Positions 27,720 to 44,114 of a stretch of 64,000 nt of DNA are shown here, one piece after another. The notes under the pieces were generated by a model. The model did not search any database, was not told the DNA's origin, and saw only the letters and a program-made list of their open reading frames with translations. Location of the stretch: positions 1 through 64,000 of the forward strand of contig DATJZY010000057.1 in assembly GCA_035577985.1 (NCBI GenBank), given 5' to 3'. Each line of letters begins with the position of its first letter. The first letter of the stretch is position 1. The translations under genes were made by a program, and so were the position numbers. Origin of the DNA: Candidatus Eisenbacteria bacterium (lineage in GTDB: Bacteria; Desulfobacterota; Binatia; DP-6).

Positions 27720-28084
27720 CGTGAACGAGGTGCCTCGGCCGCATCGGGCACCGCGCGCGGGCGAAGCTGGAGGAGTCCGACGACGAGCAGCACGAGCCCG
27801 CCGAGCGTGAGGAGCTGCCCGGAGACGAACAAGAGGCGGTAGAAGCCCACCTTCGCGGCCGCGACCGCGCGCTGCTCCTCGCTCTCCGTCGCCTTCGGGA
27901 AGAGCGTCGCCGGATCGCGCGGCGGCGTTTCCGGCGCGCGTGTGAGCACCTCCTGGTACTGCGCGAGCTTCGAGCGTCCGACCGCGAGGTCGCCGATGCC
28001 GATCGCGACGAGCAGAAGCCCGCCCACGATCCACGTGCTCCGCGCGAGCGCCTGCACGGTGAGCTCCACCTGCCGTGCCGCCAT
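27716..28084 (-). CDS. Small two-helix membrane protein, unknown
   Basis: A 122-residue protein with two transmembrane helices (STWIVGGLLLVAIGIGDLAV and LLTLGGLVLLVVGLLQL) joined by a polar loop of about 50 residues. I used the ATG at 28084 (MAARQVEL); in-frame ATGs at 28093 and 28120 are possible. The family is not recognised. It is divergent from meaB and ends inside the promoter of the downstream kinase operon. Confidence 0.65.
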   Translation of the reverse strand: MAARQVELTVQALARSTWIVGGLLLVAIGIGDLAVGRSKLAQYQEVLTRAPETPPRDPATLFPKATESEEQRAVAAAKVGFYRLLFVSGQLLTLGGLVLLVVGLLQLRPRAVPDAAEAPRSR

Positions 28085-28167
28085 GGTGCACATCCTCTCC
28101 GCGCGCCGCCGGCGGGTCAACCTCGCTCGGCTTGACGATGCGCAGCTACGCCTCTACGTGGACCTCG

Positions 28168-29145
28168 ATGGACGCGGTATCGCTCGTCGACCGCATGTTG
28201 GCGGGCGACCGCACCGCGCTGGCGCGCCTGATGACGCTGGTCGAGGGCAGGGCGGCCGCGGTGCCGGCGATCATGGCGCGCCTCTACGCGCGGGTCGGCA
28301 AGGCGCACGTGATCGGCGTCACGGGGCCGCCCGGCGCGGGCAAGTCGACGCTGGTCGATCGCATGGCGGCGCAGCTCCGCGCCCAGGGCCGCAAAGTCGG
28401 GATCGTCGCCGTCGACCCGTCGAGCCCGTTCTCCGGCGGCGCGGTGCTGGGCGACCGCATCCGCATGCAGGCCCACTTCCTCGATCCGGGCGTCTTCATC
28501 CGCAGCCTCTCCACGCGCGGCAGCCACGGCGGCATTCCGCGCGCCGCGCGCGACATCGTCCGGCTGCTCGACGCGTTCGGCATGGACGACGTCATCGTCG
28601 AAACGGTGGGCGTGGGGCAGACCGAGCTCGACATCATGCGGCTCGCCGACACGGTGATCGTCGTGCTCGTCCCCGAGGCAGGCGACGCCGTGCAGGTTAT
28701 GAAGGCGGGCCTGCTCGAGATCGCCGACCTCTTCGTCGTGAACAAGGCCGATCGCGAGGGTGCCGACCGGCTCCAGCAGGAGCTGTCGCAGATGCTCACG
28801 CTGCGCCCGGCGACGGAATGGACGATCCCCGTCCTGCGCGCGCAGGCGAAGGACGACGTCGGCACGACGCCGGTCGTCGAGGCGCTCGAGCGCCATCGCG
28901 CGTTCGTCCGCACGCACGATCGTCGCGACGAACGGGAGCGGGCGCGTCGCGCCGGCGATGTGCTCGACATCCTGGACGAGGAGCTGCACCGGCGGGTGCG
29001 GGAAGGCCTCGCCTCGGACGGTCTCGCGTCGCTCGTGGAGTCGGTGAGAGCCGGCACGATGGACCCGTACACCGCGGCGACGCGCATCCTCGCGGACCCT
29101 CAGGCGCTCGCCGCGCTCCTCGCGAAGGAGCCGCGCCATGGCTGA
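28168..29145 (+). CDS. meaB: Methylmalonyl-CoA mutase-associated GTPase MeaB
   Basis: A 325-residue G3E-family GTPase that guards B12-dependent acyl-CoA mutases by gating cobalamin loading and release. It has Walker A GPPGAGKST at 53-61, the DPSSPFSGGAVLGDRIRM signature, VETVGVGQTELDI (switch region) and the NKAD base-specificity motif. The ATG at 28168 begins the typical VSLVDRMLAGDRTALAR helix; ATG 28138 is possible. No mutase subunit lies in the window, so the client must be elsewhere. It overlaps the next gene by 8 bases. Confidence 0.93.
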   Translation: MDAVSLVDRMLAGDRTALARLMTLVEGRAAAVPAIMARLYARVGKAHVIGVTGPPGAGKSTLVDRMAAQLRAQGRKVGIVAVDPSSPFSGGAVLGDRIRMQAHFLDPGVFIRSLSTRGSHGGIPRAARDIVRLLDAFGMDDVIVETVGVGQTELDIMRLADTVIVVLVPEAGDAVQVMKAGLLEIADLFVVNKADREGADRLQQELSQMLTLRPATEWTIPVLRAQAKDDVGTTPVVEALERHRAFVRTHDRRDERERARRAGDVLDILDEELHRRVREGLASDGLASLVESVRAGTMDPYTAATRILADPQALAALLAKEPRHG

Positions 29146-29904: not shown

Positions 29905-29978
29905 GGCGGCGTAGCTCAGTTGGCTAGAGCGAGGGTCTCATAATCCCTAGGTCGGCTGTTCGATCCAGCCCGCCGCCA
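29905..29978 (+). tRNA. tRNA-Met (anticodon CAT)
   Basis: The cloverleaf has a perfect 7-bp acceptor stem (GGCGGCG/CGCCGCC), D arm GCTC/GAGC, anticodon loop CTCATAA (anticodon CAT), a 5-base variable loop and a GGCTG/CAGCC T arm with loop TTCGATC. The anticodon stem has a T-T mismatch at its last pair. The discriminator is A and CCA is not encoded. An elongator Met tRNA is most likely; a lysidine-modified Ile2 tRNA cannot be excluded. Its 3' end is duplicated at 38315-38348. Confidence 0.93.
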
Positions 29979-29993
29979 TTTTCTTTCGCTGGG
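29960..29993 (+). repeat. att-like direct repeat at the tRNA-Met 3' end (left copy)
   Basis: 34 bases covering the T-loop, T stem and acceptor end of the tRNA plus 15 bases beyond it. The same string recurs at 38315-38348 with one mismatch (T29980 against C38335): a shared 20-mer tcgatccagcccgccgccat, then ttctttcgctggg. Integrases of tRNA-targeting islands leave exactly this pattern. The intact tRNA makes this the attL-like side. Confidence 0.8.
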
Positions 29994-30236
29994 CAGTCGA
30001 CGACTTCCGCACCGTCGGCAGTCGGGCGTTTCTCGACTCGATCCTCGGTGGTTGTAGCGGTGGCAGTTGGTGCCGGGTTCAGCCGCTGTACGGCGTCGAG
30101 TTGATGGGCTGGCGGGTCTTGACCCCGATCGCTGGGCCACTAAGCGACCCGTTTAGAGACCGTAGGGGTCCACTTTCCTTTGGACCCGCACATAGGAGAA
30201 AGGGTAAACGACAGAACTTGAGGAGGGAGGCGTTAC

Positions 30237-30518
30237 ATGTCGATGAGGTACATTGTCGTCGCGTGTTTGGCGATGCTGGCAGCGTGCACGACCGCGCACG
30301 ACATATACTTTCCCGATGGCACGCGCGGACACCGCGTCAGCTGCGACACCTGCGTCACCGTCCCGGCGGATTGCTATCAGAAGGCCGGGGAAATCTGCGG
30401 AGCGAACGGCTACACGATCGTCAACATGCCCGGCGGGACGACCAGCAGCTACAGCTACGGCTACAGCAGCACCCGGGACCTGTTCATCAAGTGCAACTCG
30501 ACAGACGCGCCCCGCTAG
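30237..30518 (+). CDS. Small lipoprotein, unknown
   Basis: A 93-residue predicted lipoprotein: lipobox MLAAC with Cys17, then a short mature part with five more cysteines (CDTCVTVPADCY, EICGANGYTIV, IKCN) and a Ser/Tyr-rich loop. A strong GGAGGGAGG site lies 6 bases before the ATG. Base composition is lower in G+C than in flanking operons, consistent with the island setting. Similar small Cys-containing lipoproteins exist in many gammaproteobacteria, but I cannot name a function. Confidence 0.75.
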   Translation: MSMRYIVVACLAMLAACTTAHDIYFPDGTRGHRVSCDTCVTVPADCYQKAGEICGANGYTIVNMPGGTTSSYSYGYSSTRDLFIKCNSTDAPR

Positions 30519-30722
30519 TCGTCTCATCCACGGGTGTATCTTTCGCGGTCGTGCGCCGCATTGTGGCCGAGGGCACAGTCGGGGCTCTCGACGATACTCC
30601 AGAGACCCACAAATGGACAGGTTCACGAAATCTTGTGTGCCGTTTGTATGCCAACTCCGCCGAACTCGGCCGATTGGCCGGATCTCATCGCGAAACAGGG
30701 TGCGCTTGCGGATGCGGCGAAC

Positions 30723-31616
30723 CTAGCCCACTTCCCAACCGATTGAAGGCACCCGGACGTTCAAGCTCGCGTGGACACTGCTGCCGGAAAAGGTGCCGAA
30801 GCCGTCCCCCGAGTCATGGGTTTGGCAGCCAACCCACAAGACATACCAGTGATCTGAATCGATCTGGAAACCGGCGCTAAGGGGGAAAGCGCTGACGTAA
30901 TCGAAGCCCCCGCCATCGTCCCACCAAGTGTCGTCTTTCCAGAGGGGAACCGTGTAATCGAGTACCGTACCATCAAAATTCCCGGCCCAATCGTACCGCT
31001 GGGCGTAAAGGCCAATGGAACCGTCGGAGTGCGCCGAAGACGCAGTAACGTATTCGTGCCAATTGAACGAGAAGGCGGGGCTGGCCCAGAACCTAAAGTT
31101 GTTGGCTCCATCGAGCGGCGACGCAAAGCTAATGCCGACTCTCGAGCTGGCGGTGGCGCTCGCTTCGTTGTCTCCTGTGACCACCCGAACTGCCAGGTCC
31201 CCATTTGCCGTGGCCGAGGCGGAAGCCGTAGGCGAGCCATGCGTTTGCTTCGATGTCCAAACGTGGTCGAACGGTGGAGTGAAGGTGCGAATCAGGGAAC
31301 CGAGAATCACGGGGATCCCTGCCACGCGATCCCCCGGGGGAGCAACGCGCTTGGACGAGACTGATCTCGCCGCATCTCGCCGCTCCCGAATGTAGGAGGC
31401 CCAATCGGGATCCCTCCTCAGGGGCCCCAGCAGCCTGTTTCGCACCACGGAGTTGGCCCGGGCGGACTCTTTGCGGTGCCTCTCGAGTTCGTCGAAGCGG
31501 CGTTTCAGCCTCTTTTCCTCGTGGGCCATTCCCCGCGCCACGATCCTTCGAGGAGCTGAAACATGACCGCGACTATCCTTGACCACTGGGATTCGCCGCT
31601 TACGTGGAGCTGCCAT
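30723..31616 (-). CDS. Hypothetical island-borne protein
   Basis: A 297-residue protein starting at an ATG with GGAGGGG 8 bases upstream. The first 105 residues are very basic and probably coiled (AHEEKRLKRRFDELERHRKE). The rest is polar and aromatic, beta-rich in look (FRFWASPAFSFNWHEY, YAQRYDWAGNFDG, DHWYVLWVGC) with no signal peptide. I recognise no domain. Codon use is less GC-biased than that of the flanking operons, supporting acquisition by transfer. A phage-like or structural role is only a guess. Confidence 0.7.
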   Translation of the reverse strand: MAAPRKRRIPVVKDSRGHVSAPRRIVARGMAHEEKRLKRRFDELERHRKESARANSVVRNRLLGPLRRDPDWASYIRERRDAARSVSSKRVAPPGDRVAGIPVILGSLIRTFTPPFDHVWTSKQTHGSPTASASATANGDLAVRVVTGDNEASATASSRVGISFASPLDGANNFRFWASPAFSFNWHEYVTASSAHSDGSIGLYAQRYDWAGNFDGTVLDYTVPLWKDDTWWDDGGGFDYVSAFPLSAGFQIDSDHWYVLWVGCQTHDSGDGFGTFSGSSVHASLNVRVPSIGWEVG

Positions 31617-31695
31617 CGTCAATCCCCTCCGAGCGGAATGAACCGGCATGCGGTCCTCCGCGTCATTGCACCCATGGTCTGGATTGCCTTCCCCA

Positions 31696-32123
31696 TCAGT
31701 TCATCCTCCGACGCGAGAGTGACGCGCCGGGATTCGCGGCGAGGACCGTGCGGCCGGTCGCGCCGGTGTTGGCGTTCACGGGCAGAGAGCAAGACTGCTT
31801 CTCCTCGCTGTCCAAGATCCCGATGCATTGATCGGTCACGTGCCCGCCCAGGGACGCACTCTCATCGCCGATGAAGACGTGCTTCCCGTACGTGGCGAAC
31901 CGTGCGGCAACGAGCCGAGGGTGTTCCGCATGCCGGAGACCGCCATGGACTCGATCCCGGTGATCCGATCGTCGCCGTTCTGCCCCGACGTGAAGATGCC
32001 TCCGTTCGCGACGAACGGCGTGCCAGCGCGACATCGGCCGGATCGGTGGTCGCTCGCACGTCGGGAACCGAACAATGCGCTGGCGACCGCGATGGTGACG
32101 CACGCAGCGACACATTTTCCCAT
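31696..32123 (-). pseudogene. Frameshifted secreted-protein gene
   Basis: An ATG at 32123 follows GGGAGG and begins a signal-peptide-like stretch (MGKCVAACVTIAVASALFG). That frame stays plausible to about 31900 (NGGIFTSGQNGDDRITGIE). The sensible continuation (FATYGKHVFIGDESASLGG, ending SLSRRRMN) is in a different frame and stops at 31696. One frameshift or a small indel near 31890-31930 would join the parts, giving a protein of about 140 residues. Function unknown. Confidence 0.5.
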
Positions 32124-32236
32124 GACGACCTCCCTGGTTCGATCGTGAGTGGCGTGCTTGCGAGTCGCGCCGTGGTATCCACGGCAGACTCGCCGATAGC
32201 GCGAGGTGTCCAAGGAAGTCAAGAGATTTGTGGCGC

Positions 32237-32328
32237 CGCGCGAGCCGGGGGCTGAGGGGGAAGGGTAGGGCGCAGCGTCCGATAGGAAGGCTTACGTCGC
32301 TGTTCCCAGGCTTATGGCGAATACGGCC
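32237..32328 (+). repeat. 93-bp repeat, copy 1 (IS91-type end candidate)
   Basis: First of three direct copies of a sequence that starts cgcgcgagccgggggctgag and ends atggcgaNtacggcc. This copy is one base shorter than the others and has a few substitutions. The second copy lies 170 bases after an IS91 transposase C-terminus, which suggests that the repeat is the terminal part of that element class. No transposase fragment adjoins this copy. Confidence 0.75.
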
Positions 32329-32391
32329 CTGGCATCCTTAAGTACCTCATTGATCTGTTTCACCAGCGCTGTGCTCGGCGATTCAAAAGAT

Positions 32392-32520
32392 TCATCGGGC
32401 GACTTCTGCACCTGCGGTCAGTACCACCCGGCCGAGCGCCGCCCGCGAATCGATGTACCGGTGGGCCGAGGCGGCCTCGGAGAGCGGGAATGTGCGGTCG
32501 ACGACGACTCGGAGCTCGCC
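32392..32520 (-). pseudogene. Quinone oxidoreductase (MDR family) C-terminal fragment A
   Basis: The minus frame reads GELRVVVDRTFPLSEAASAH then RYIDSRAALGRVVLT and stops at 32392. This is the usual C-terminus of zinc-independent NADPH:quinone reductases (medium-chain dehydrogenase family). The upstream part (ETVRSSARVTTMLQALLRDI) is shifted by one base, so the gene is broken. A 75-base core recurs as fragment B 600 bases away. Confidence 0.6.
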
Positions 32521-32817
32521 CTTTCGCGATGTCGCGGAGCAGCGCCTGCAGCATCGTCGTGACGCGTGCCGAACTCCGTACCGTCTCGCCTACATGAACG
32601 ACGCGGCGTCGGCGGCGTCGGTCACCGCGTGGTCGCGCTCGTGCGGCGCCGCGACCTGTACGTTCACGGGCGCGATCCCGGCAGCGCCACGAGCGGGCAG
32701 AGCGGGAACCTCTTCTGGCACGCCTGCCTCGGGGGCGGTGGCCACTCGCTCCACACCGCGCCCGCAGGCCGCCGCCGCGGAAGCACTCCCCGCACTCGCC
32801 TGCTCGGACGGCCTCCG

Positions 32818-33137
32818 TCAGGGCCCGAGCGTCGCGGGCAGGCAGACCTCTTCCGCCCGCGACACGGAGACGGTCGAGGAGCCGAGCTCGTCGGCGAGAT
32901 AGACCGGCGCCAGCTTCGCGCTCTTCGGCGCGGTCACCTGATAGCAGAGGAGCTGATCGGCGAGCGTCTCGGCGCCCGGCGCCCCGCCGTTCACGTTCGC
33001 CGGACGGCAGAGCCACCGGGGCTTCTTGAGCCCGAGCGCGGCCCGCGACTCGATGTACCGGTGCGCCGCGGCGGCCTCCGAGAGCGGGAACGTGCGGTCG
33101 ACGACGACTCGGAGCTCGCTGCCTTCGTAGCCGTCCG
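32818..33137 (-). pseudogene. Chimeric fragment: quinone reductase C-terminus joined in frame to a secreted-protein C-terminus
   Basis: One open minus frame contains two unrelated pieces. The first (ELRVVVDRTFPLSEAAAAH, RYIESRAALG) is a second copy of the quinone reductase end. It passes without a stop into LKKPRWLCRPANVNGG, LLCYQVTAPKSAKLAPV and SVSRAEEVCLPATLGP, which resembles the Cys-containing C-terminus (K-P-x-x-LC-P ... CY-V) of secreted proteins common in Binatota-like genomes. It lacks a start codon and ribosome site, so I regard it as recombination debris. Confidence 0.5.
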
Positions 33138-33326
33138 CGCTACCGGAGCTGGGCCGAGCTCATGCGGCGGGCATTCGATACCGACGTGCTCGCTTGCCCA
33201 AGGTGTGGCGGACGGATGATCCTGCTGGCGACCATCGAGGATCCGGCCGTGATCCGCCGCATTCTGACGCACCTCGGGCTCTCGCTCGATACCGGCGATC
33301 CCCTCCCGGAGCGCGGCCCGCCGTAG
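33138..33326 (+). pseudogene. IS91-family transposase C-terminal fragment
   Basis: 63 codons read RYRSWAELMRRAFDTDVLAC, then PRCGGRMILLATIEDPAVIR and a short tail to TAG. This zinc-finger-like CPRCGG-ATIEDP ending is typical of IS91 (Y2, rolling-circle) transposases. The N-terminal 300 or so residues, including the catalytic tyrosines, are missing: the fragment starts abruptly at quinone reductase debris. The 93-bp repeat copy 2 follows after 170 bases. Confidence 0.75.
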
Positions 33327-33495
33327 CCGGGCGATCGCTGACCGGCAGCAGGCAGGCAGCTACAAGGTCATCGCCCCGATTGCCCGAGGATGCCGGCATG
33401 GCCGACGGCCGCCGGGATGGGGCCAGTGCGCCGGAGAGAGCCGAGTTGCTGGCGACATTTTTGGTTGACGCGCGTCGTTTGGGCGTTGTATGCCC

Positions 33496-33588
33496 CGCGC
33501 GAGCCGGGGGTTGAGGGGGAAGGGTAGGGGCGCAGCGTCCGATAGGAAGGCTTGTGTCGCTGTTCCCAGGCTTATGGCGACTACGGCC
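33496..33588 (+). repeat. 93-bp repeat, copy 2 (downstream of IS91 fragment)
   Basis: Second copy of the cgcgcgagccggggg... repeat, in the same orientation as the others. It lies 170 bases after the IS91 transposase stop and abuts a truncated sulfatase reading frame, as expected where a rolling-circle element end meets its target. Bases between the transposase stop and the repeat hold no recognisable gene. Confidence 0.75.
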
Positions 33589-33821
33589 ACGGCCAGAACC
33601 AGCTCTTCGCGTCGCTCGACTGGCTGCCGACGCTGGTCGACATCGGCGGCGGCGCCAAGCGTAACGATCTGAAGATGGAGCTCGAAGCCGGGAAGTATCC
33701 CGGCATCGTCAAGACGACGCTCGATGGCTTCAACCAGCGCGACTACCTGGAGGGCAAGTCGGAGAAGTCGGCGCGCGAAGTGTTCTTCTACAAGGCCACC
33801 GCACGCCATCCCAGCGACTAG
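33588..33821 (+). pseudogene. Arylsulfatase C-terminal fragment
   Basis: The frame reads NQLFASLDWLPTLVDIGGG, LEAGKYPGIVKTTLDGFNQR, DYLEGKSEKSAREVFFYKAT and stops at 33821. It aligns with the DWLPT...LDG-N...REEIFYF stretch of the complete sulfatase 80 bases downstream, yet is clearly a different sequence. Both the catalytic N-terminus and the normal end are missing. It starts exactly at the end of the 93-bp repeat, so the element probably cut it off. Confidence 0.7.
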
Positions 33822-33903
33822 GCGCTGACGCTCGTCACCGAGCGGGCGGCCGAAGCGCCCGCCCGCTCTATGTTCACCGCTCGTGACTCCAAGGAGGGTT
33901 GGA

Positions 33904-35493
33904 ATGCAGATCTCGAAGATCGTGCTCGCGGCGATGCTGGCCGTGCTCGGGACCAGCGCCGCGCCGGCGCGCGCACAAGCGCCGGCGAAGAAGCCGAACA
34001 TCCTGGTCATCTGGGGCGACGACATCGGGATCTACAACCTGAGCGCCTACAACCTCGGCGTGATGGGCTACCGCACCCCGAACATCGACCGCATCGCCCA
34101 CGAGGGGGCGCTCTTCACCGACGCCTACGCCCAGCAGAGCTGCACGGCGGGCCGCTCCTCCTTCATCCTCGGCGAGCATCCGTTTCGCACGGGCCTGCTC
34201 ACGATCGGCATGCCGGGCTCGCCGCAGGGGATCCCCGACTGGGCGCCGACCATCGCGGACCTGCTGAAGGCGCAGGGCTACACCACCGGCCAGTTCGGCA
34301 AGAACCACCTCGGCGATCGCGACCAGCACCTTCCGACGGTGCACGGCTTCGACGAGTTCCTCGGCAATCTGTATCACCTGAACGCCGAGGAGGAGCCGGA
34401 GACCTACTACTACCCGAAGGATGCCGAATTCCGGAAGAAGTTCGGCCCGCGCGGCGTCCTGCACACGTGGTCCGACGGCAAGGGCGGGCAGAAGATCGAG
34501 GATACCGGCCCGCTCACACGGGCGCGGATGCCCACGATCGACCTGGAGATCTACGACGCCGAGCAGAAGTTCGTGGCGAGCGCGGCCAAGAGCGGCAAGC
34601 CCTTCTTCGTGTGGTTCAACACGACGCGCATGCACGTGTGGACGCATCTGAAGCCATCCGCGGAGGGTCGCACCGGCATCGGCCTCTATCCCGACGGCCT
34701 GGTCGAGCACGACGACATGGTCGGCGGAGTGTTGAAGCAGCTCGACGATCTGGGGATCGCCGACAACACGATCGTCGTCTACGGCACCGACAACGGCGCA
34801 GAGGTCGGGACGTGGCCCGACGGCGGCATGACGCCGTTCCGTGGCGAGAAGGGAACGACGTGGGAAGGCGGCTTCCGCGTGCCGATGTTCGTCCGCTGGC
34901 CGGGCGTGATCAAGCCCGGCACCGTCGTCAACGACATCTTCTCGCAGGAGGACTGGCTGCCGACGTTCCTGGCAGCCGCGGGCGAGCCCGACATCGTCGA
35001 GAAGGTCAAGAAGGGCTATCAGGCCAACGGCAAGACGTGGAAGGTCCACCTCGACGGCTACAACTTCCTGCCGTTCTTCCGGGGCGAGACGAAGAAGGGG
35101 CCTCGCGAGGAGATCTTCTACTTCGGGCAGGGCGGCGAGCTGAACGGCGTCCGCTGGAACGACTGGAAGGTCAACTTCGCCGTCATGCACGGCAACATTG
35201 CGGATGCCATACGTGACGTGCCCGCGTGGCCGCAGATCGTCAATCTGCGAGCCGACCCCCTCGAAAAGGCGGCGGAGGAGTCCCCGCTGTACTTCCGCTG
35301 GTACGGCGACAACATCTGGCTCTTCGTCCCGGTACAGCAGAAGCTCAAGACCTTCCTGCTGACGCTGCCGGAGTTTCCCTTCCAGCAGGGCAGCAGCCTG
35401 AACGCGGCGAACATCAACTACACGACGCTGCAGGCGATGCAGGCCATGAAGCGCCTGCAGGAGCTCGAAAGCCTTTCGCCGCCGAACAACTGA
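33904..35493 (+). CDS. Secreted arylsulfatase
   Basis: A 529-residue type I sulfatase exported by a signal peptide (1-26, ending ARAQA). Metal ligands Asp39-Asp40 lie in WGDDIG; the nucleophile motif is Cys80-T-A-G-Arg84 (QQSCTAGRSSF), the C-x-A-x-R variant that a formylglycine-generating enzyme must convert. GTDNGAEV and FRGEKGTTWEGGFRVPMFVR are further family motifs. It would hydrolyse sulfate esters in the periplasm or outside. GGAGGG lies 5 bases before the ATG at 33904. It sits inside the tRNA-flanked element, next to a truncated sulfatase relative. Confidence 0.92.
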   Translation: MQISKIVLAAMLAVLGTSAAPARAQAPAKKPNILVIWGDDIGIYNLSAYNLGVMGYRTPNIDRIAHEGALFTDAYAQQSCTAGRSSFILGEHPFRTGLLTIGMPGSPQGIPDWAPTIADLLKAQGYTTGQFGKNHLGDRDQHLPTVHGFDEFLGNLYHLNAEEEPETYYYPKDAEFRKKFGPRGVLHTWSDGKGGQKIEDTGPLTRARMPTIDLEIYDAEQKFVASAAKSGKPFFVWFNTTRMHVWTHLKPSAEGRTGIGLYPDGLVEHDDMVGGVLKQLDDLGIADNTIVVYGTDNGAEVGTWPDGGMTPFRGEKGTTWEGGFRVPMFVRWPGVIKPGTVVNDIFSQEDWLPTFLAAAGEPDIVEKVKKGYQANGKTWKVHLDGYNFLPFFRGETKKGPREEIFYFGQGGELNGVRWNDWKVNFAVMHGNIADAIRDVPAWPQIVNLRADPLEKAAEESPLYFRWYGDNIWLFVPVQQKLKTFLLTLPEFPFQQGSSLNAANINYTTLQAMQAMKRLQELESLSPPNN

Positions 35494-35597
35494 CCAGCAC
35501 ATGCCTCGCGTGTGCGATGGCTGGCGTGGAACCCGTACGCGACCAGCCCCTAGGCTCACCATGGGGTCTCTGAAAGTTCTCGATTGGGAGGTGTGTC

Positions 35598-36305
35598 ATG
35601 GGATCAGCCAGCGGTGCCGTACGATGCGTTCTCGGCCTCGTCCTGGTCACGGGCTGCGCGTCGACCAAGGTGACCGACCGCACGCGGTATGAGGGGACGG
35701 AGAAGCTCGCGCGACCCAACCGGATCATCGTCCACGACTTCACGGCGGATGCCACGGACGTGCCACGAGAATCCCCGTTCGCCGCCGACCTCGCCAGCGC
35801 CGGCACGCCTTCAGCGCAGCAGATCGCGCTCGGCGACAAGCTCGGCGCCCAGATCGCGAAGCAGCTCGTGGCGGACCTGCGCGCCATGGGGCTTCCGGCG
35901 GTGGAGGCCGCTGGCCAGCCGCTGCCGCGGGTCGACGACATCGTGCTGCGCGGATACTTCGTCACGCTCGCGCCGGGCAGCGCGACCAAACGGGTTCTGC
36001 TCGGGTTCGGCTCCGGGTCGGCCGAGCTCCAGACAGTGGTCGAAGGCTATCAGATGACGGCGCAGGGCCTGCGCTCACTCCGCAGCAGCGAAGTCAGATC
36101 GGCGGGGGGACAGCTGCCGGGTGTCGTCCTGCCGGCGGCGGTTCTCGCCGCCACCGCGAACCCGATCGGGCTCGCGGTCGGAGGCACCGCAAAGCTGGCC
36201 GGCGAGGCGAGCGGCTCGGCCACCATCGAGGGTGCCGCGAAGCGGACGGCGGACGAGATCGCAGTGCAGATCAAGACGGCCGCCCAGCGGCAGGGGTGGA
36301 TTTGA
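35598..36305 (+). CDS. DUF4410-like lipoprotein
   Basis: A 235-residue lipoprotein with lipobox VLVTGC (Cys20). The mature part has the layout of DUF4410 proteins: an early strand IIVHDFTADATDVP, a helix with QLVADLRAMGLPA, IVLRGYFVTLAPGSATKR and a Gly/Ala-rich C-terminus. Members are found in many proteobacterial envelopes; their role is not established. GGGAGG precedes the ATG by 6 bases. It lies 104 bases after the sulfatase, and repeat copy 3 starts 38 bases after its stop. Confidence 0.8.
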   Translation: MGSASGAVRCVLGLVLVTGCASTKVTDRTRYEGTEKLARPNRIIVHDFTADATDVPRESPFAADLASAGTPSAQQIALGDKLGAQIAKQLVADLRAMGLPAVEAAGQPLPRVDDIVLRGYFVTLAPGSATKRVLLGFGSGSAELQTVVEGYQMTAQGLRSLRSSEVRSAGGQLPGVVLPAAVLAATANPIGLAVGGTAKLAGEASGSATIEGAAKRTADEIAVQIKTAAQRQGWI

Positions 36306-36342
36306 GATTTGGCTTCCGGCTACGTCACGATGCGTATGCGAC

Positions 36343-36435
36343 CGCGCGAGCCGGGGGCTGAGGGGGAAGGGTAGGGGCGCAGCCTCCGATAGGAAGACTT
36401 ATGTCGCTGTTCCGAGGCTTATGGCGACTACGGCC
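36343..36435 (+). repeat. 93-bp repeat, copy 3
   Basis: Third direct copy, from cgcgcgagcc to tacggcc, differing from copy 2 at a handful of positions. It lies between the DUF4410 lipoprotein gene and the sulfatase-modifying-factor-like gene. No IS91 coding remnant touches this copy; the nearest, at 37884, is on the same strand. Confidence 0.75.
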
Positions 36436-36516
36436 CTGCCGAGCGCGGGATCGCATACATCGCGGTGGTCAGCGGACGACGACGTGTCGTACAAATCCCG
36501 CGAGGAGGATCGAGCC

Positions 36517-37458
36517 ATGCGACACATCATCGCGGCGTCCCTCGGCGCGTTGCTCGTCTACGGGGGCTCCCCGGCCGGGGCCGAGCTCTGTCAGCGGAGA
36601 TCCGGGGCGGTCTTCGTGCGAGCGAAGTGCAAAAGCAAGGAGCGGCCCCTCGACCTGGCGCAGCTCGGCGGCGCCGGCGCCAAGGGAGAGAAGGGCGACC
36701 CGGGAGCGCAGGGGCCGCCCGGGATCGGTCCGCTCGCCACCTGCCCCCCGGACGCCGTCCTGGCGGGGGCGGCGTGCATCGACAAGTACGAGGCGAGCGT
36801 GTGGCGGGTGCCCGGGGCGACGACCTCGAACGCCGTCCTGGTGGCGAAGATCCAGGGTGGCGAGGCGACGGCCGCCGACCTCGCCGCGGGCGGCGCGACC
36901 CGGCTCGGCAATGCCATCGGCGACTACGCGCCGTGCGCGGACAGCGGGCAGAACTGCACCAACGACATCTACGCGGCGAGCCTCCCCGGCGTGATGCCCT
37001 CGCGCTACATCACCTGGCTCCAGGCCCAGGCGGCGTGCAAGAACGCGCGCAAGCGGCTGCCGTCGAACGCGGAGTGGCAGGCGGCGGTGCTGGGGACGCC
37101 GGACCCGGGCCCGGACAACGGCACGACGGACTGCAACACGACGAGCGCGGTTGGGCCGAGCGCCACGGGGTCGCGCAGCGGCTGCGTGTCGGCGGACGGG
37201 GCCTTCGACATGGTGGGGAACCTCGCCGAGTGGGTGGCGGACTGGGTGCCGCGCTCGGTGCCGTGCGGGACCTGGAGCGCCGGCGTCAGCCCGACGGACA
37301 TCCAGTGCCTGGCGGGGGCGGCTACTACCGGCGAGCCCGGCGTGCTGGTGCGCGGCGGCAGCTACGGGAACGGGCCCTACGCCGGCCCCTTTGCGGTCTA
37401 TGGCAACTTCCACCCGTCCGGCTTGGAGGTCAACCTCGGCTTCCGTTGCGCCCGCTAG
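36517..37458 (+). CDS. Secreted protein: two-Cys module, collagen-like stub and FGE-sulfatase-like domain
   Basis: A 313-residue exported protein. After a signal peptide (ends SPAGA) comes a module ELCQRRSGAVFVRAKC-K-KERPLDL shared with several proteins in this window, then GEKGDPGAQGPPG and a C-terminal SUMF1/FGE-type domain (DKYEASVWRVPG, RYITWLQAQAACKNARKRLP, MVGNLAEWVADWV, NLGFRCAR). The CxxxxxYC-type active-site cysteine of true aerobic FGEs is absent; the matching place reads GSYGNGPYAGP. So it is unlikely to activate sulfatases and more likely binds ligands. GAGGAGG precedes the ATG. Its stop overlaps that of an IS630 fragment on the other strand. Confidence 0.82.
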   Translation: MRHIIAASLGALLVYGGSPAGAELCQRRSGAVFVRAKCKSKERPLDLAQLGGAGAKGEKGDPGAQGPPGIGPLATCPPDAVLAGAACIDKYEASVWRVPGATTSNAVLVAKIQGGEATAADLAAGGATRLGNAIGDYAPCADSGQNCTNDIYAASLPGVMPSRYITWLQAQAACKNARKRLPSNAEWQAAVLGTPDPGPDNGTTDCNTTSAVGPSATGSRSGCVSADGAFDMVGNLAEWVADWVPRSVPCGTWSAGVSPTDIQCLAGAATTGEPGVLVRGGSYGNGPYAGPFAVYGNFHPSGLEVNLGFRCAR

Positions 37459-37589
37459 TGCACCGCCGCCGAGATGCGCTCAATCATTCGACGGTGTGAA
37501 CGGATGATCGCGTGGGCGGGCTTCGTCCACGCGAACGGTGTCGGGTTGCGGTTCCACGCGCGCATGTAGGCGGCCAGATGCTCGGGACA
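37455..37589 (-). pseudogene. IS630-family transposase C-terminal fragment
   Basis: The last 43 codons of an IS630-type DDE transposase: EHLAAYMRAWNRNPTPFAWT, then KPAHAIIRSHRRMIERISAA and a stop. The N-terminal catalytic part is gone. Its TAG shares bases with the TAG of the plus-strand gene before it. Confidence 0.65.
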
Positions 37590-37596
37590 CCCGACG

Positions 37597-37791
37597 ATGA
37601 ACGTCGTGCTGTCGAACTGCCCGATGGGCGAGGAGGGACACAATGGGGAAGTCGTGGAGGTCGACGCCCAGGTCACGATCGGCGACAACGGCGGGGCCAT
37701 CTCCGCGGACGGCTTCACATACGCAGACAGCTGGACCGATAGTTCGAGCGGCAACACCCGACACGTCAGCTGGTCGTTCCAGGGGAGCTAG
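37597..37791 (+). CDS. Hypothetical short ORF
   Basis: 64 codons (MNVVLSNCPMGEEGHNGEVV..., ending TRHVSWSFQGS). The composition is polar and more protein-like than its surroundings, possibly the tail of a beta-rich protein cut by the neighbouring insertion fragments. There is no convincing ribosome site. It may be a remnant and not a gene. Confidence 0.25.
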   Translation: MNVVLSNCPMGEEGHNGEVVEVDAQVTIGDNGGAISADGFTYADSWTDSSSGNTRHVSWSFQGS

Positions 37792-37883
37792 CCGGTCGGA
37801 GCCCTTGGCTCGTCGACGTCGCCTGCCGGCTCCTGCGGCTTCTTCTCGGCCGGCAGCTCCGTGACCTTGCTGGTGGCCGGCGA

Positions 37884-38314
37884 ATGACGGGCCAGGCCGC
37901 GCACCTGGTCGACGTGGTGCTGCCGCGCGGTGCGCCAATGGGTGCTGAGCGTGCCGTACCGGCTGCGCTATCTCCTGGCGTTCGATCATCGGCTCTGCCG
38001 TGCCATCCTGCGCGTCTACGTCCGCGTCCTGTTGGGCTCCCATCGACGCCGGGCGCGACGCGCCGGCGTGCGGGACGGGCAGGGCGGGGTGGTGATCCGG
38101 CGCTTCGGCGGGGGCGTCAATCTACACGTGCACTTTCATACGCTCGTATTGGAGGGCGTCTTCGCGGCGGACGGCGAGGGTGTGCTGCGATTCCTGCCGC
38201 TCCAGGCGCCGACCGACGCGCAGGTGGCCCGGGTGCTCGCGACGATCCACGCCCGGGTGCGTCGCCTGCTGCGGCAGCGTGGTCTCGATCCCGAGGATCC
38301 GAGTGGCAGGGCCC
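37884..38314 (+). pseudogene. IS91-family transposase internal fragment, frameshifted
   Basis: Two frames together give the middle of an IS91 transposase: MTGQAAHLVDVVLPR (37884-37928), then VRQWVLSVPYRLRYLLAFDH, RRARRAGVRDGQGGVV and RFGGGVNLHVHFHTLVLEGV (from 37930). The HLHFHT-like HVHFHT is the metal-binding HUH motif. The zinc-finger N-terminus and the C-terminus are missing, and a frameshift sits near 37928. IS91 similarity stops around 38305, just before the att-like repeat. Confidence 0.75.
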
Positions 38315-38348
38315 TCGATCCAGCCCGCCGCCATCTTCTTTCGCTGGG
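38315..38348 (+). repeat. att-like direct repeat, right copy of tRNA-Met 3' end
   Basis: 34 bases matching 29960-29993 with one mismatch. It carries only the last 19 bases of the tRNA and its 3' flank, so it is not a tRNA gene. The two copies bound 8.36 kb. The IS91 remnant ends at its left border and the cupredoxin-like gene ends 74 bases to its right. Confidence 0.8.
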
Positions 38349-38421
38349 AATCGGTGGCGCGCGCGTCTACTGCGCCGCCGCTGCCGAGGTCGTGGAGCGC
38401 GACGCCGTTCCGTTCGCCGAC

Positions 38422-39348: not shown

Positions 39349-39584
39349 GCACGGGAGCCGGAGCAACCATCGTGCCGCGCGTGCGTCCGTCGAGAATGCC
39401 CGTCGGGCGGGACCCGGGCACGGATTCGACTCCGACGATCGGGTGGGTGTCACGCCCTTGAGTCGTAACGGAACGTCGCACGAAGACGGCATCGTGCACG
39501 CGGTAGAGGCGCCCAGCGGCACCGTCCGCGCCTTCCCGGCCGGCGAGCATGTGTGCTACGGAGCGCAGACCTCACGTGCGACTC

Positions 39585-40214
39585 ATGCGCCTGCTCACCC
39601 TCGTCGTGATCGCCCTCCTGGCCGTTCCCGCACGGCCGGTCGAGGCGGCGTTCTGCAAGAGCCGGAGCGGAGCCGTCTTCGTCCGCGACAGGTGCAAGCG
39701 GAAGGAGACATCCATCGACCTCGCCGCGAGCGCGGGGGCACCGAAAGGCGACGTCGGCGCGCAGGGACGGAGCCAGCCCCGGCTGCGCGCCGTCGACAGC
39801 GGCGGGCGCCGGCTGCCCGGGACCTTCGACGTGGCGGGGCGGTTCGTCTACCGCGACGGCGACCACGTCTTCGGCATCGTCGTCCACTCCGACGGCTTCT
39901 CGGGCGGCGGCTTCGGTTACAACGGGATGGGCTGCACGGAGGATCGCTTCGTCGCCGCGAGTGAGGAGCTCTACACCAGCGTTCCCGTCGAGCTCGGGAT
40001 CGCGTACTACGCGGGCGAGCCGATCGCGATGCGGACGTTCATGTCCTCGGCCTATCCGTCGACGCCGGCGGCGTGCACGGGAGTCGGCAAGACGTACGTC
40101 CCCGCCACCGGCTTCTGTTGTTCCGACGGACCGTCGTCGGTGCGTAGCGGTCCCGCGACCCCGGTCGATCTGAGCGGCTTCACCCCGCCCTTCCGCGTCG
40201 AGGTGGAAGAGTGA
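39585..40214 (+). CDS. Secreted two-Cys/collagen-stub protein, tandem paralogue 1
   Basis: A 209-residue exported protein: signal peptide (MRLLTLVVIALLAVPARPVE), then the module AFCKSRSGAVFVRDRCKRKE, a short GAPKGDVGAQG stretch and a domain of about 140 residues. That domain starts LRAVDSGGRRLPG, has IAYYAGEPIAMR, ends GFCCSDG...PVDLSGFTPPFRVEVEE, and recurs in the next two genes. The first in-frame start (39549) would precede the signal peptide without benefit. The three genes overlap by 4 bases each, so they form one operon. Function unknown; an extracellular adhesive or structural role is a guess. Confidence 0.78.
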   Translation: MRLLTLVVIALLAVPARPVEAAFCKSRSGAVFVRDRCKRKETSIDLAASAGAPKGDVGAQGRSQPRLRAVDSGGRRLPGTFDVAGRFVYRDGDHVFGIVVHSDGFSGGGFGYNGMGCTEDRFVAASEELYTSVPVELGIAYYAGEPIAMRTFMSSAYPSTPAACTGVGKTYVPATGFCCSDGPSSVRSGPATPVDLSGFTPPFRVEVEE

Positions 40215-40825
40215 CGCCGGTTCACGCCGCCGTCCTCGCCGTCCTGGTCGTCGCCTCGGGGGCCGACGCCGCACTCTGCCGCGGCAAGGGCGGCGCACTC
40301 TTCGTGCGCGAGGCCTGCAAGCGACGCGAGACCCCGGTGGTCGTCCCCAAGGGGGACCAGGGGCCGACCGGTCCATCCGGTCCGCGGGTGCGCGCCGTCG
40401 ACGCATCCGGGAAGGCGATCGGGTTCATCAATGCCAGCGGCCTCGTCGTCGTCCGGCAAGGGGACGTCGCCCTGGCCATGACGGCGACGACCGACGGCTT
40501 CGTGCCCACGGGCGGGCTCTTCTTCGAGACGACGGACTGCAGCGGCGCCGGATTCGTGCCCTTCCAGTACTCGACGCTCTACCAGCGGGCTCGCGTCGTC
40601 GGCCGCACCGCCTACTACACCGGTGAACCCCTGACCGATCACCTCCTCAAGTCAGTGCTGGCGATACAGACTCCGTCCGCCTGCACGACGGCTGGAGGAA
40701 CCTACAACGTCCTCCTCGACGCGTGCTGCGAGCCGCGGACTCCGTTCACGGAGGCGACGGGACCGGCCCTCTCGCTCGACCTCGACGCCTTCACAGCGCC
40801 GTTCCACGTGGAGATCGAGCGATGA
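40211..40825 (+). CDS. Secreted two-Cys/collagen-stub protein, tandem paralogue 2
   Basis: A 204-residue paralogue beginning at a GTG that overlaps the previous stop (GTGA). Signal peptide to GADA, then ALCRGKGGALFVREACKRRE, GDQGPTGPSGP and the shared C-terminal domain: VRAVDASGKAIGFINASG, AYYTGEPL, DACCEP and LDLDAFTAPFHVEIER. The conserved paired cysteine (CC) near the end and the YYxGEP motif are family marks. It is translationally coupled to both neighbours. Confidence 0.78.
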   Translation: MTPVHAAVLAVLVVASGADAALCRGKGGALFVREACKRRETPVVVPKGDQGPTGPSGPRVRAVDASGKAIGFINASGLVVVRQGDVALAMTATTDGFVPTGGLFFETTDCSGAGFVPFQYSTLYQRARVVGRTAYYTGEPLTDHLLKSVLAIQTPSACTTAGGTYNVLLDACCEPRTPFTEATGPALSLDLDAFTAPFHVEIER

Positions 40826-41466
40826 AGCGGCCGTGGAGCGCCGTGCTGTTCGTCGCGATCCTCGTCGCCGAGCCAGCCGCGGCCGACGTGCTCTGCCGCG
40901 CCCGCAACGGTCGCGTGATCGTCCGGACGAGCTGCAAGAAGCGCGAGGCGACGCTCGACTTCCCAAAGGGACCTCCGGGCGATGCCGGAGCCGCTACCGC
41001 GCCGCCGGTCCGGATCGTCGACGCCGCCGGCGTGCCCGTGGGCCTGTTCGCCGAGCCGGCCAACGAGGACGACACCCCGTCGGTCCTCTTCGAAGCCGGG
41101 GGTCAGGTCGTGACGTTCCTCATCATCGGCCCGGCGGGATTCGATCAGAACGGATTTCTCTACCATATGGTCCCACACTGCGCCGACGCGGGCCTCGTCT
41201 TTGTCTCCAGGCGCAACGCGCTCGTGCGGGAAGGGAACGTGGTCGGAACGACAGGCTACTATGCCGGCGACCCCGTCGAATCGAGGGTCCCCGCGTCGCG
41301 TGAGAAGACCAAGCCGGGGGCGGGCTGCGGTGCGGACGAGCCGCTCGCCAACGGGAACTGCTGCGAAGTGGCGATCACCCCCATCGCACTCGATCTCGGT
41401 CCGGCGATGACGGTCTTCGACATCCCCTCGCTCGGGCTGACGCTGCCGCTTCGCATCGAGCCCTGA
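40822..41466 (+). CDS. Secreted two-Cys/collagen-stub protein, tandem paralogue 3
   Basis: A 214-residue paralogue whose ATG overlaps the preceding TGA (ATGA). Signal peptide to EPAAA, module VLCRARNGRVIVRTSCKKRE, GPPGDAGA stub, then VRIVDAAGVPVGLF, GYYAGDPVESR, NGNCCEV and IPSLGLTLPLRIEP. It is the most divergent of the three. The operon ends here; about 320 bases without a recognised complete gene follow. Confidence 0.77.
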   Translation: MKRPWSAVLFVAILVAEPAAADVLCRARNGRVIVRTSCKKREATLDFPKGPPGDAGAATAPPVRIVDAAGVPVGLFAEPANEDDTPSVLFEAGGQVVTFLIIGPAGFDQNGFLYHMVPHCADAGLVFVSRRNALVREGNVVGTTGYYAGDPVESRVPASREKTKPGAGCGADEPLANGNCCEVAITPIALDLGPAMTVFDIPSLGLTLPLRIEP

Positions 41467-42420: not shown

Positions 42421-43122
42421 TCAATCGGCGATTCGCTTCACGCCGGTTGCGTTTCCCGGCGCGGTCACGCCCAGGGGCCTCTTCGACCTCGCGCGCGACG
42501 CCGCCGGAAAGAGAATCGCATGGATCTCGGGCGCCCCGTCGTCGGCCGCGGCCCGCGCGCCGCGCTTCAGCCCCGCATACGCCGAATGCCAGGCACGTCC
42601 CACGGCATCGCGCGTCCGGCGCGCGGCGCGGACCTGGGCCTCGATCTCGTTCACTCGGATGACGGCCTGCCCGACGGCTCGCGCCGCGTCGTCGGCCGCC
42701 CGGGCGGCTTCGGACGTCCGCTCGCCGAGCGCTCCGCCTCGCCGGACGGCCGCGACGAGGCGATGCACGACGTCGACTTCGTCGGCGAACGGCAGGCGCG
42801 CGACGCGGCTCGGTGACGGTGCCCCGAACGCCGCAAACGGGTTCCGGCGCCGATGACCATCGGCGACCAGCGCCCGGGCGAGCGTCTCCACCGCCTCGTC
42901 CTGCGCCGCATCGAGTCGCGACAGGCGCTCTCGCGCGGTCCGAAGACGCCGCTCGATGGCGATCACCTTCCGCTGGGCCGCGAAATAGCGACGGTGCTCG
43001 CGCTGGAAGCGCACGAGCCTCTTCTTCACCGGCCGCGTATCGACGGCGCCGGCAGCGGACAGCATCGAGGCACCGATCCGGAGTCGCAGAGCAGGGCCGA
43101 TCAACGGGCCGCGTATGGGCAC
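42421..43122 (-). CDS. Hypothetical coiled-coil protein
   Basis: A 233-residue basic, Arg/Ala-rich, mainly helical protein without signal peptide. Heptad-like stretches (AIERRLRTARERLSRLDAAQ and VIRVNEIEAQVRAARRTRDA) suggest coiled coils. GAGGAGG lies 5 bases before the GTG at 43122, which supports a real gene. I do not recognise a family. It borders the IS256 remnant region. Confidence 0.6.
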   Translation of the reverse strand: MPIRGPLIGPALRLRIGASMLSAAGAVDTRPVKKRLVRFQREHRRYFAAQRKVIAIERRLRTARERLSRLDAAQDEAVETLARALVADGHRRRNPFAAFGAPSPSRVARLPFADEVDVVHRLVAAVRRGGALGERTSEAARAADDAARAVGQAVIRVNEIEAQVRAARRTRDAVGRAWHSAYAGLKRGARAAADDGAPEIHAILFPAASRARSKRPLGVTAPGNATGVKRIAD

Positions 43123-43279
43123 GACGTCCTCCTCGTCCGACGGCGGTAACCCGATCGCTCGCTCTGTAGCGGACCCTCCGGTGCTTCATCAACGGCCGAG
43201 GCGCGGCACGCTCGTCGCCCTGTCAGTTCGGACGTGCGATCGGCCGGGTACACTGGGAAGAGGCGGATTTCCGTCGTGC

Positions 43280-43403
43280 AAGGGCGCAGGTACGACGCGT
43301 GAGGCCGATCCGGGTCGTGCAATGGCCCAGGTACACGGGCGTACCCGCCGATGCGGATCTGGAACGGCCCAGGTACGCCCGCATGACCGGCGATGCCGTC
43401 GTG
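43280..43403. repeat. Three degenerate tandem repeats of about 41 bp
   Basis: Units begin at 43280, 43321 and 43363 (period 41-42), each opening with AA-GGC-CAGGTAC, and a partial fourth starts at 43404 (aaggtac). Identity between units is modest. They lie just upstream of the IS256 transposase remnant and could be decayed element-end sequence or iterons. Nothing else is recognised between 43123 and 43474. Confidence 0.4.
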
Positions 43404-43474
43404 AAGGTACGCGAGTACTTCCGGGCGCTCTACGTGTGGGGAACCGTTCGCTTGTCCCTGGGAGTTGTGACCGG

Positions 43475-43994
43475 AAGTTGCACTTCAACATCCGGCTGGA
43501 GGACGACCGCCTCTGCACGCTCGTCATGATCGGCGTGCGACCCGACGGGACGAAGGAGCTGATCACGGTCGAGGACGGCTACCGGGACAGCGCCGAGAGC
43601 TGGAAGACCGTGCTCCGCGACTTGAAGCGTCACGGCATGCGCCTACCCGTCGTCGCCGTGGGCGGTCACGACGTTGGAGAAGGACGCCGACGTGCTCCCC
43701 ACGTTCTTCGACTTCCCCGCCGAGCACTGGAAGCATTTTCGCACGTCGAACGTGGTCGAGTCGCCGTTCGCGACGGTGCGGGCACGGCAGCGCGTGACGA
43801 AGGGCGCAGGCTCCCGCACGAAGGGCCTCTTGATGGCCTATAAGCTCCTCGACATGGCACAGGCGCGATGGCGACGCCTCGACGGCGCACACTTGCCGCT
43901 CGTCCGGGCGGGCATCGGCTTCGCAGTCGGAGGGGAAGGTCAACAGGACGAGATCGAGAGCGGCCTGATCACGGCGCGCCCTCCACGGCCTTGA
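43475..43994 (+). pseudogene. IS256-family (mutator-type) transposase remnant with internal deletion
   Basis: The first block (KLHFNIRLEDDRLCTLVMIG, ELITVEDGYRDSAESWKTVL) is the catalytic core region and ends near 43663. After a frame change the C-terminal block runs from 43674 (LEKDADVLPTFFDFPAEHWK, then VESPFATVRARQRVTKGAGS) to the stop at 43994. Some 150 codons that normally lie between, including the central DDE residues, are gone, as is the N-terminus. It cannot be active. It lies 120 bases upstream of the qNOR gene. Confidence 0.85.
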
Positions 43995-44114
43995 ACAGTT
44001 ATCTTCACACCGGTCTCTTCCCCTTGGCCGTCGCGTCCTCTAGACCCTCTCTCGTTCAGGAACGTGGCCGGAAGAACACGGGCGCTCCGCGTCGCGCCGA
44101 TGAGGGGGGACATG

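Follow-up and report, generated by a model that had tools for sequence, protein, structure and literature searches.

Probable remnant of a small integrative element at a tRNA-Met gene, marked by a displaced tRNA fragment and an integrase stump

The 64,000-nt stretch of contig DATJZY010000057.1 analyzed here (the window) contains a tRNA-Met gene whose 3' end recurs about 8.4 kb further downstream. This raises the question of whether the DNA in between was delivered by a tRNA-targeting integrative element and, if so, what has become of the machinery that inserted it. The original prediction had described a 34-base repeat with one mismatch, bounding the footprint of a decayed element. The repeat was borne out: the copies at 29960-29993 and 38315-38348 agree in 33 of 34 bases, share their orientation and lie 8.36 kb apart, with 19 bases of the core forming the 3' end of tRNA-Met and 15 belonging to the flank. 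When the genome of origin (5.7 Mb, 191 contigs) was searched with the core pattern, allowing up to three mismatches and Y at the variable base, exactly these two copies were detected, while the reversed pattern used as a control gave none. Further, when the stretch was simulated 300 times with a first-order Markov model and both strands were scanned, the best chance match reached 23/34, and the repeat can therefore not be put down to chance. A tRNA gene followed by a displaced 3' fragment in the same orientation is the arrangement sought by Islander, and the distance between the copies falls within the 2-200 kb that the cited part of the Islander description gives as limits of island length (PMC4383910). 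The features of the locus are compiled in Table 1.

Table 1. Features of the tRNA-Met locus and of the DNA between the two repeat copies (window coordinates).
Feature	Position	Strand	Basis
tRNA-Met (CAT), intact target gene	29905-29978	+	ARAGORN; Rfam RF00005
Tyrosine integrase stump, last ~62 codons; TAG at 29924-29926 inside the tRNA	29924-30114	-	C-terminus profile, DNA alignments
Left att copy (attL core): 19 tRNA 3' bases + 15 flank	29960-29993	+	repeat comparison
Low-GC segment, likely original cargo	30115-32232	.	61.7% GC
93-aa ORF, lipoprotein-like by eye	30237-30518	+	phrog_5685, E 1e-9; no Pfam match
308-aa orphan ORF	30723-31649	-	no Pfam/PHROG match
IS91-family 3' end, copy 1	32233-32328	+	repeat comparison
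Zinc-binding dehydrogenase C-terminal fragment	32395-32589	-	PF13602
Second zinc-binding dehydrogenase C-terminal fragment	32821-33159	-	PF13602
IS91-family transposase C-terminus	33144-33323	+	97% aa over 60 residues to G037:C32 transposase
IS91-family 3' end, copy 2, downstream of transposase C-terminus	33480-33588	+	90% to G037:C32:2533-2641
Sulfatase C-terminal fragment	33589-33821	+	80% DNA identity to part of G000:C145
Sulfatase	33883-35493	+	PF00884, E 4.1e-46
DUF4410 protein	35598-36305	+	PF14366
IS91-family 3' end, copy 3	36334-36435	+	repeat comparison
FGE-sulfatase domain protein (start by eye)	36517-37458	+	PF03781
Internal IS91-family transposase fragment, both ends gone	37871-38297	+	PF04986
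Right att copy, probably a truncated attR (displaced 3' fragment of the tRNA)	38315-38348	+	33/34 identical to left copy

No integrase had been noticed in the original prediction, and this point had to be corrected, as a stump of about 62 codons is present on the minus strand (30114-29924). The lead came from the relatives, by which we mean the genomes of the same bacterial class (148 genomes, the genome of origin, G000, included): in G024, an integrase fragment (PF00589, 59.4 bits) sits beside the orthologous tRNA-Met, and a weaker fragment (21.4 bits, below the cut-off) is found beside tRNA-Met in G006. In the window, the minus strand from 30139 to 29927 is a stop-free stretch of 71 residues which ends at a TAG inside tRNA-Met. 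A profile built from 13 integrase C-termini of relatives, with the window left out, picked the stump from among 1051 six-frame stretches of the window with an E-value of 1.1e-11 (runner-up, 0.17), and it still did so when the antisense-tRNA columns were removed (2.3e-7 vs. 0.088 for the next stretch). At tRNA-Met of G104, a full-length integrase gene (436-codon stop-to-stop frame) enters the tRNA in the same frame and orientation as the stump, with an antisense overlap of 55 bp in both. Since the DNA alignments of the stump with G104, G024 and G006 all begin at 30114, the integrase gene was evidently cut at 30114/30115. The intact integrase gene that marks a putatively active island in Islander is thus reduced here to its last ~62 codons, from which the catalytic motifs are gone, and it is for this reason that we speak of a remnant. 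A dead island can accordingly be recognized from two short repeats and an easily missed 62-codon stump.

The integrase clade of the stump has many members in the class. At E <= 1e-10, the G024 fragment has matches in 67 of the 148 genomes, that of origin included, the weak end of this list likely consisting of generic integrases, and full-length clade integrases adjoin several tRNA genes across the class. We inspected 31 loci, 30 from the search with the G024 fragment plus locus L118. In 15 of them, the integrase frame and the adjacent tRNA share an antisense overlap of 36-76 bp; these cover seven kinds of tRNA (Met, Phe, Gly, Lys, Arg, Val and Cys). The remaining 16 comprise loci with a tRNA nearby without overlap (2), a tRNA on the same strand (3), no tRNA found (7) or the motif not detected (4). 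In these clade integrases, it is the antisense strand of the targeted tRNA gene that encodes the last ~12-25 residues, and the C-terminal sequence of the window stump likewise reads antisense into its target. The genome of origin holds a second clade integrase remnant, frameshifted (L119, G000:C93:670-986), whose tail reads like antisense tRNA; no tRNA was found within that 6-kb stretch. With regard to wider relationships, the G104 integrase matches the integrase families phrog_1 and phrog_216, and a scan of viral contigs returned no relative of it. A known phage or plasmid source was discarded, as all matches in the phage and plasmid collections stayed below 60% identity (best, 33.3%).

Whether members of this clade are bracketed by att repeats was addressed at 13 loci, 11 of them tRNA-bearing. 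A displaced tRNA fragment was present in three of the 11 and was detected in none of the other eight tRNA-bearing stretches, some of which are ended by contig ends. The repeats measure 49/49 bp at tRNA-Met in G111 (12.6 kb apart), 51/51 bp at tRNA-Val in G048 (5.3 kb apart), and 53 bp at 98% identity (9.9 kb) and 49/49 bp (16.0 kb) at tRNA-Arg in G054, and all four begin in the anticodon loop. The two displaced tRNA-Arg fragments of G054 (L114, G054:C8, 10432-10484 and 16516-16564) lie downstream of one integrase, a layout that would suit two elements in tandem, of which the first has a checked integrase. In all three genomes, an HTH_17 (AlpA-like) gene is located near the integrase. Further, phrog_19930, a DNA polymerase/primase family, is matched by a 507-aa protein of G111 (E 7.6e-40), and a weak primase-family match was obtained for a G054 protein (E 7.7e-5). 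By appearance, these are small elements of the type that combines an integrase with an AlpA-like regulator and a primase. Together with the integrase stump, these relatives, which carry both integrase and att repeats, support the predicted footprint of a decayed tRNA-targeting element.

Little of such an element can be recognized between the repeats of the window. The lower GC content that had been ascribed to the interior applies to the segment at 30115-32232, with 61.7% compared to a flank mean of 70.1% and a flank minimum of 66.1% (513 flank windows of equal length), but not to the other blocks (66.5-71.1%). This low-GC segment would be the likeliest original cargo; its 308-aa orphan ORF retrieved only itself and one match (E 9.6e-4) across the 148 genomes. 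The predicted sulfatase, three end repeats and transposase fragments are all present (PF00884, three ~94-nt repeats and Y2_Tnp, respectively). The sulfatase DNA has paralogues in the genome of origin at G000:C54 and C145; the C145 DNA beside the match to the sulfatase C-terminal fragment resembles the intact sulfatase, and the fragment taken alone gave no Pfam match. The two dehydrogenase fragments repeat each other at 93% over 88 nt. The interior is mostly host-like or IS-borne. A comparison of 29905-38400 with 1121 stop-free stretches taken from nine related loci recovered, besides the integrase tail and the frame antisense to it, three short, weak matches, and no relic of an HTH_17/AlpA-like excisionase or of a primase. 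Judging from its sequence, nothing recognizable encoded in the remnant could excise it.

From 32233 onward, a sequence of ~94 nt, present in three direct copies, separates the gene blocks. In G037:C32, a 90% identical copy follows a transposase C-terminus at a distance of ~160 bp downstream, and the spacing in the window is equal. The combination of a Y2-type transposase (PF04986) with a fixed downstream 3' end identifies the ~94-nt sequence, at the sequence level, as the 3' end of an IS91-family element. The likeness to the G037:C32 copy covers the transposase C-terminus, the 3' end (Table 1) and their spacing; unlike G037:C32, the window shows only pieces of such elements. Since G037 belongs to another family of the class, the IS91 element has probably moved between lineages. 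The internal transposase fragment is 72% identical in DNA to G005 and 64% identical in amino acids, over 122 residues, to G012. Two further IS91-type 3' ends, in opposite orientation, were observed in the genome of origin (L064, G000:C18, ~740-930 and 1501-1598), one of them directly following a truncated frame that resembles a reverse transcriptase by eye. Because such a frame precedes a C18 copy, the end of a group II intron was considered for the ~94-nt repeats but found no support, as Rfam at gathering thresholds finds only the tRNA in the window and the repeat sits downstream of the IS91 transposase in G037.

We also compared the surroundings of the tRNA-Met gene. Two ORFs to its left, a kinase (28063-29142, ArgK/MMAA-like by eye) and a phosphoesterase (PF00149), are conserved in the loci of 10 out of 10 relatives; the window ORFs to its right had no match in the locus stretches fetched from these 10. 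Among the genomes searched, the nearest belong to other genera, and the DNA downstream of their tRNA-Met differs. A scan of genome contigs with the core pattern carrying four degenerate positions gave no match. Pieces of the window between 44 and 64 kb match G001, G002, G003, G005 and G006 at scattered places, none of them at the tRNA locus. A crowded hotspot found no support, as only 2 of 40 other tRNA-Met sites carry the clade integrase tail, a count in which the G024 site had served to train the profile, the L019 slice was dropped as it lacked the tRNA and L187 spans only 151 bp; the site is used, not crowded. In G001, the stretch after the tRNA resembles an integrase tail by eye and was not reported by the profile. 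Beyond the right end of the element, tandem ORFs at 39549-41466 have N-termini that resemble, by eye, that of the FGE-sulfatase protein (a signal peptide, a C-x-SGAVFVR-like motif and a Gly-rich stretch), the two ORFs tested giving no Pfam match. These are followed by a degenerate Mutator-family transposase (43115-43994; PF00872 over part of the ORF) and a quinol-type nitric oxide reductase (44064-46439; PF22085 and PF00115).

The right end is where the readings of the locus part ways. The right copy is 34 bp long and begins in the T loop, unlike the clade repeats, which span 49-53 bp and start in the anticodon loop; being shorter on the tRNA side, it calls for either a truncation or a different crossover. 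The internal IS91 transposase fragment ends within 20 bp of it. None of the IS91 matches listed for the relatives extends past 38297, which sets the 34-mer apart from the IS, and the concern that the right copy might be part of a common IS sequence does not hold. The IS91-mediated deletion that had been proposed fits this end, but its role is not clear at the left end, as the break at 30114/30115 lies ~2.1 kb from the nearest IS91 end. We favor a truncated attR over a crossover in the T loop, with IS91 as the putative cause of the deletion and of the truncation.

It is conceivable, at some distance behind, that the right copy is a complete attR, in which case the crossover took place in the T loop, the 34 bp are the full core and IS91 did nothing to shorten it. 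The start of the copy in the T loop and the 15 identical bases beyond the tRNA, which would make the core long on that side, agree with this, as do the 1836 islands with T-stem-region sites set against 2083 anticodon-centered ones in the part of the Islander report cited (PMC4383910). However, the anticodon loop is where all four repeats of the clade relatives begin, and the truncation of the IS91 fragment falls exactly at its junction with the copy. We consider it unlikely that, with a true attL stump on the left, the right copy arose by duplication of the tRNA 3' end and was moved there by one-ended transposition of the IS91 type or another rearrangement, so that the real right end is elsewhere or lost. 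The proximity of the transposase fragment and the lack of the anticodon-side part found in the relatives' repeats would be explained in this way; nevertheless, the junction of the copy lies mid-gene in a transposase and not at an IS end, and a rolling-circle element would not be expected to pick up flanking DNA from such a position. The orientation and order are also those of an attR, and a third copy is absent from the genome. Lastly, an accidental repeat next to an unrelated relic, without any bounded element, is hardly credible in view of the simulations, the genome-wide count, the integrase stump and the end of the listed IS91 matches before the right copy.

We thus regard 29960-38348 as very probably the remnant of a small tRNA-Met integrative element from a tyrosine-integrase clade widespread in the class. 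This is in line with a repeat beyond chance, a stump in the frame of the G104 gene, three bracketed relatives, the drop in GC content at the left end, the conservation of neighbors confined to the left of the tRNA, and IS91 pieces and ends that tie to the G037 copy. It has to accommodate a right copy with only 19 tRNA bases, displaced fragments in just three of the 11 relatives' loci, the failure to find an excisionase or primase relic, and an interior of largely host-like or IS-borne DNA. According to the remnant reading, the integrase would have recombined a tRNA 3' end carried by the element (attP) with the chromosomal tRNA-Met (attB), leaving an intact tRNA with the integrase gene adjacent and antisense into it on the left (attL) and, at the opposite, right-hand end, a displaced 3' fragment of the tRNA (attR). 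Later, the integrase except for its last ~62 codons would have been lost, along with any excisionase and replication genes. IS91-family elements would have inserted repeatedly, always in one orientation, and the three 3' ends and both transposase pieces would be what is left of them between the host-like genes. The joining of one of these transposase pieces to attR would probably have cost attR its element-side part.

The remnant is of a known kind, an ordinary genomic fossil with a clear pedigree. As in the tRNA islands of Islander, to the extent that the cited part of the source describes them, an intact tRNA is followed downstream by a 3' fragment in the same orientation, 8.4 kb away, with the integrase beside the tRNA; unlike putatively active islands, it retains ~62 integrase codons only. 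It shares with the elements of G111, G054 and G048 the integrase C-terminus, the antisense overlap with the tRNA, the att repeat and the size range. In contrast, these elements keep a full-length integrase, the HTH_17 gene, repeats of 49-53 bp and, in G111, a primase-like gene, all of which the window lacks. The remnant gives a fixed point for a family of small tRNA-targeting elements in a class whose genomes, as sampled here, are mostly fragmented.

The antisense-tRNA tails across the clade are a more unusual observation than the remnant itself; they provide a handle for finding such elements and raise a testable question on target choice. If the tRNA-encoded tail mattered for activity or regulation, target and protein would be physically coupled. 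It is a rather speculative idea, which we would not expect to hold, that the att core doubles as integrase coding sequence in such a coupling, each change of target rewriting the C-terminus of the protein. Integrases that extend across attP have precedents in phage Mx8 and SSV, as mentioned in the cited part of the Islander source (PMC4383910), and only a functional, clade-wide coupling would therefore be new. As far as that part describes them, the coding frame crosses the att core both in the Mx8 and SSV integrases and in the clade of the stump; unlike in Mx8 and SSV, the frame of the clade terminates within the antisense strand of the restored tRNA, and integration does not split it.
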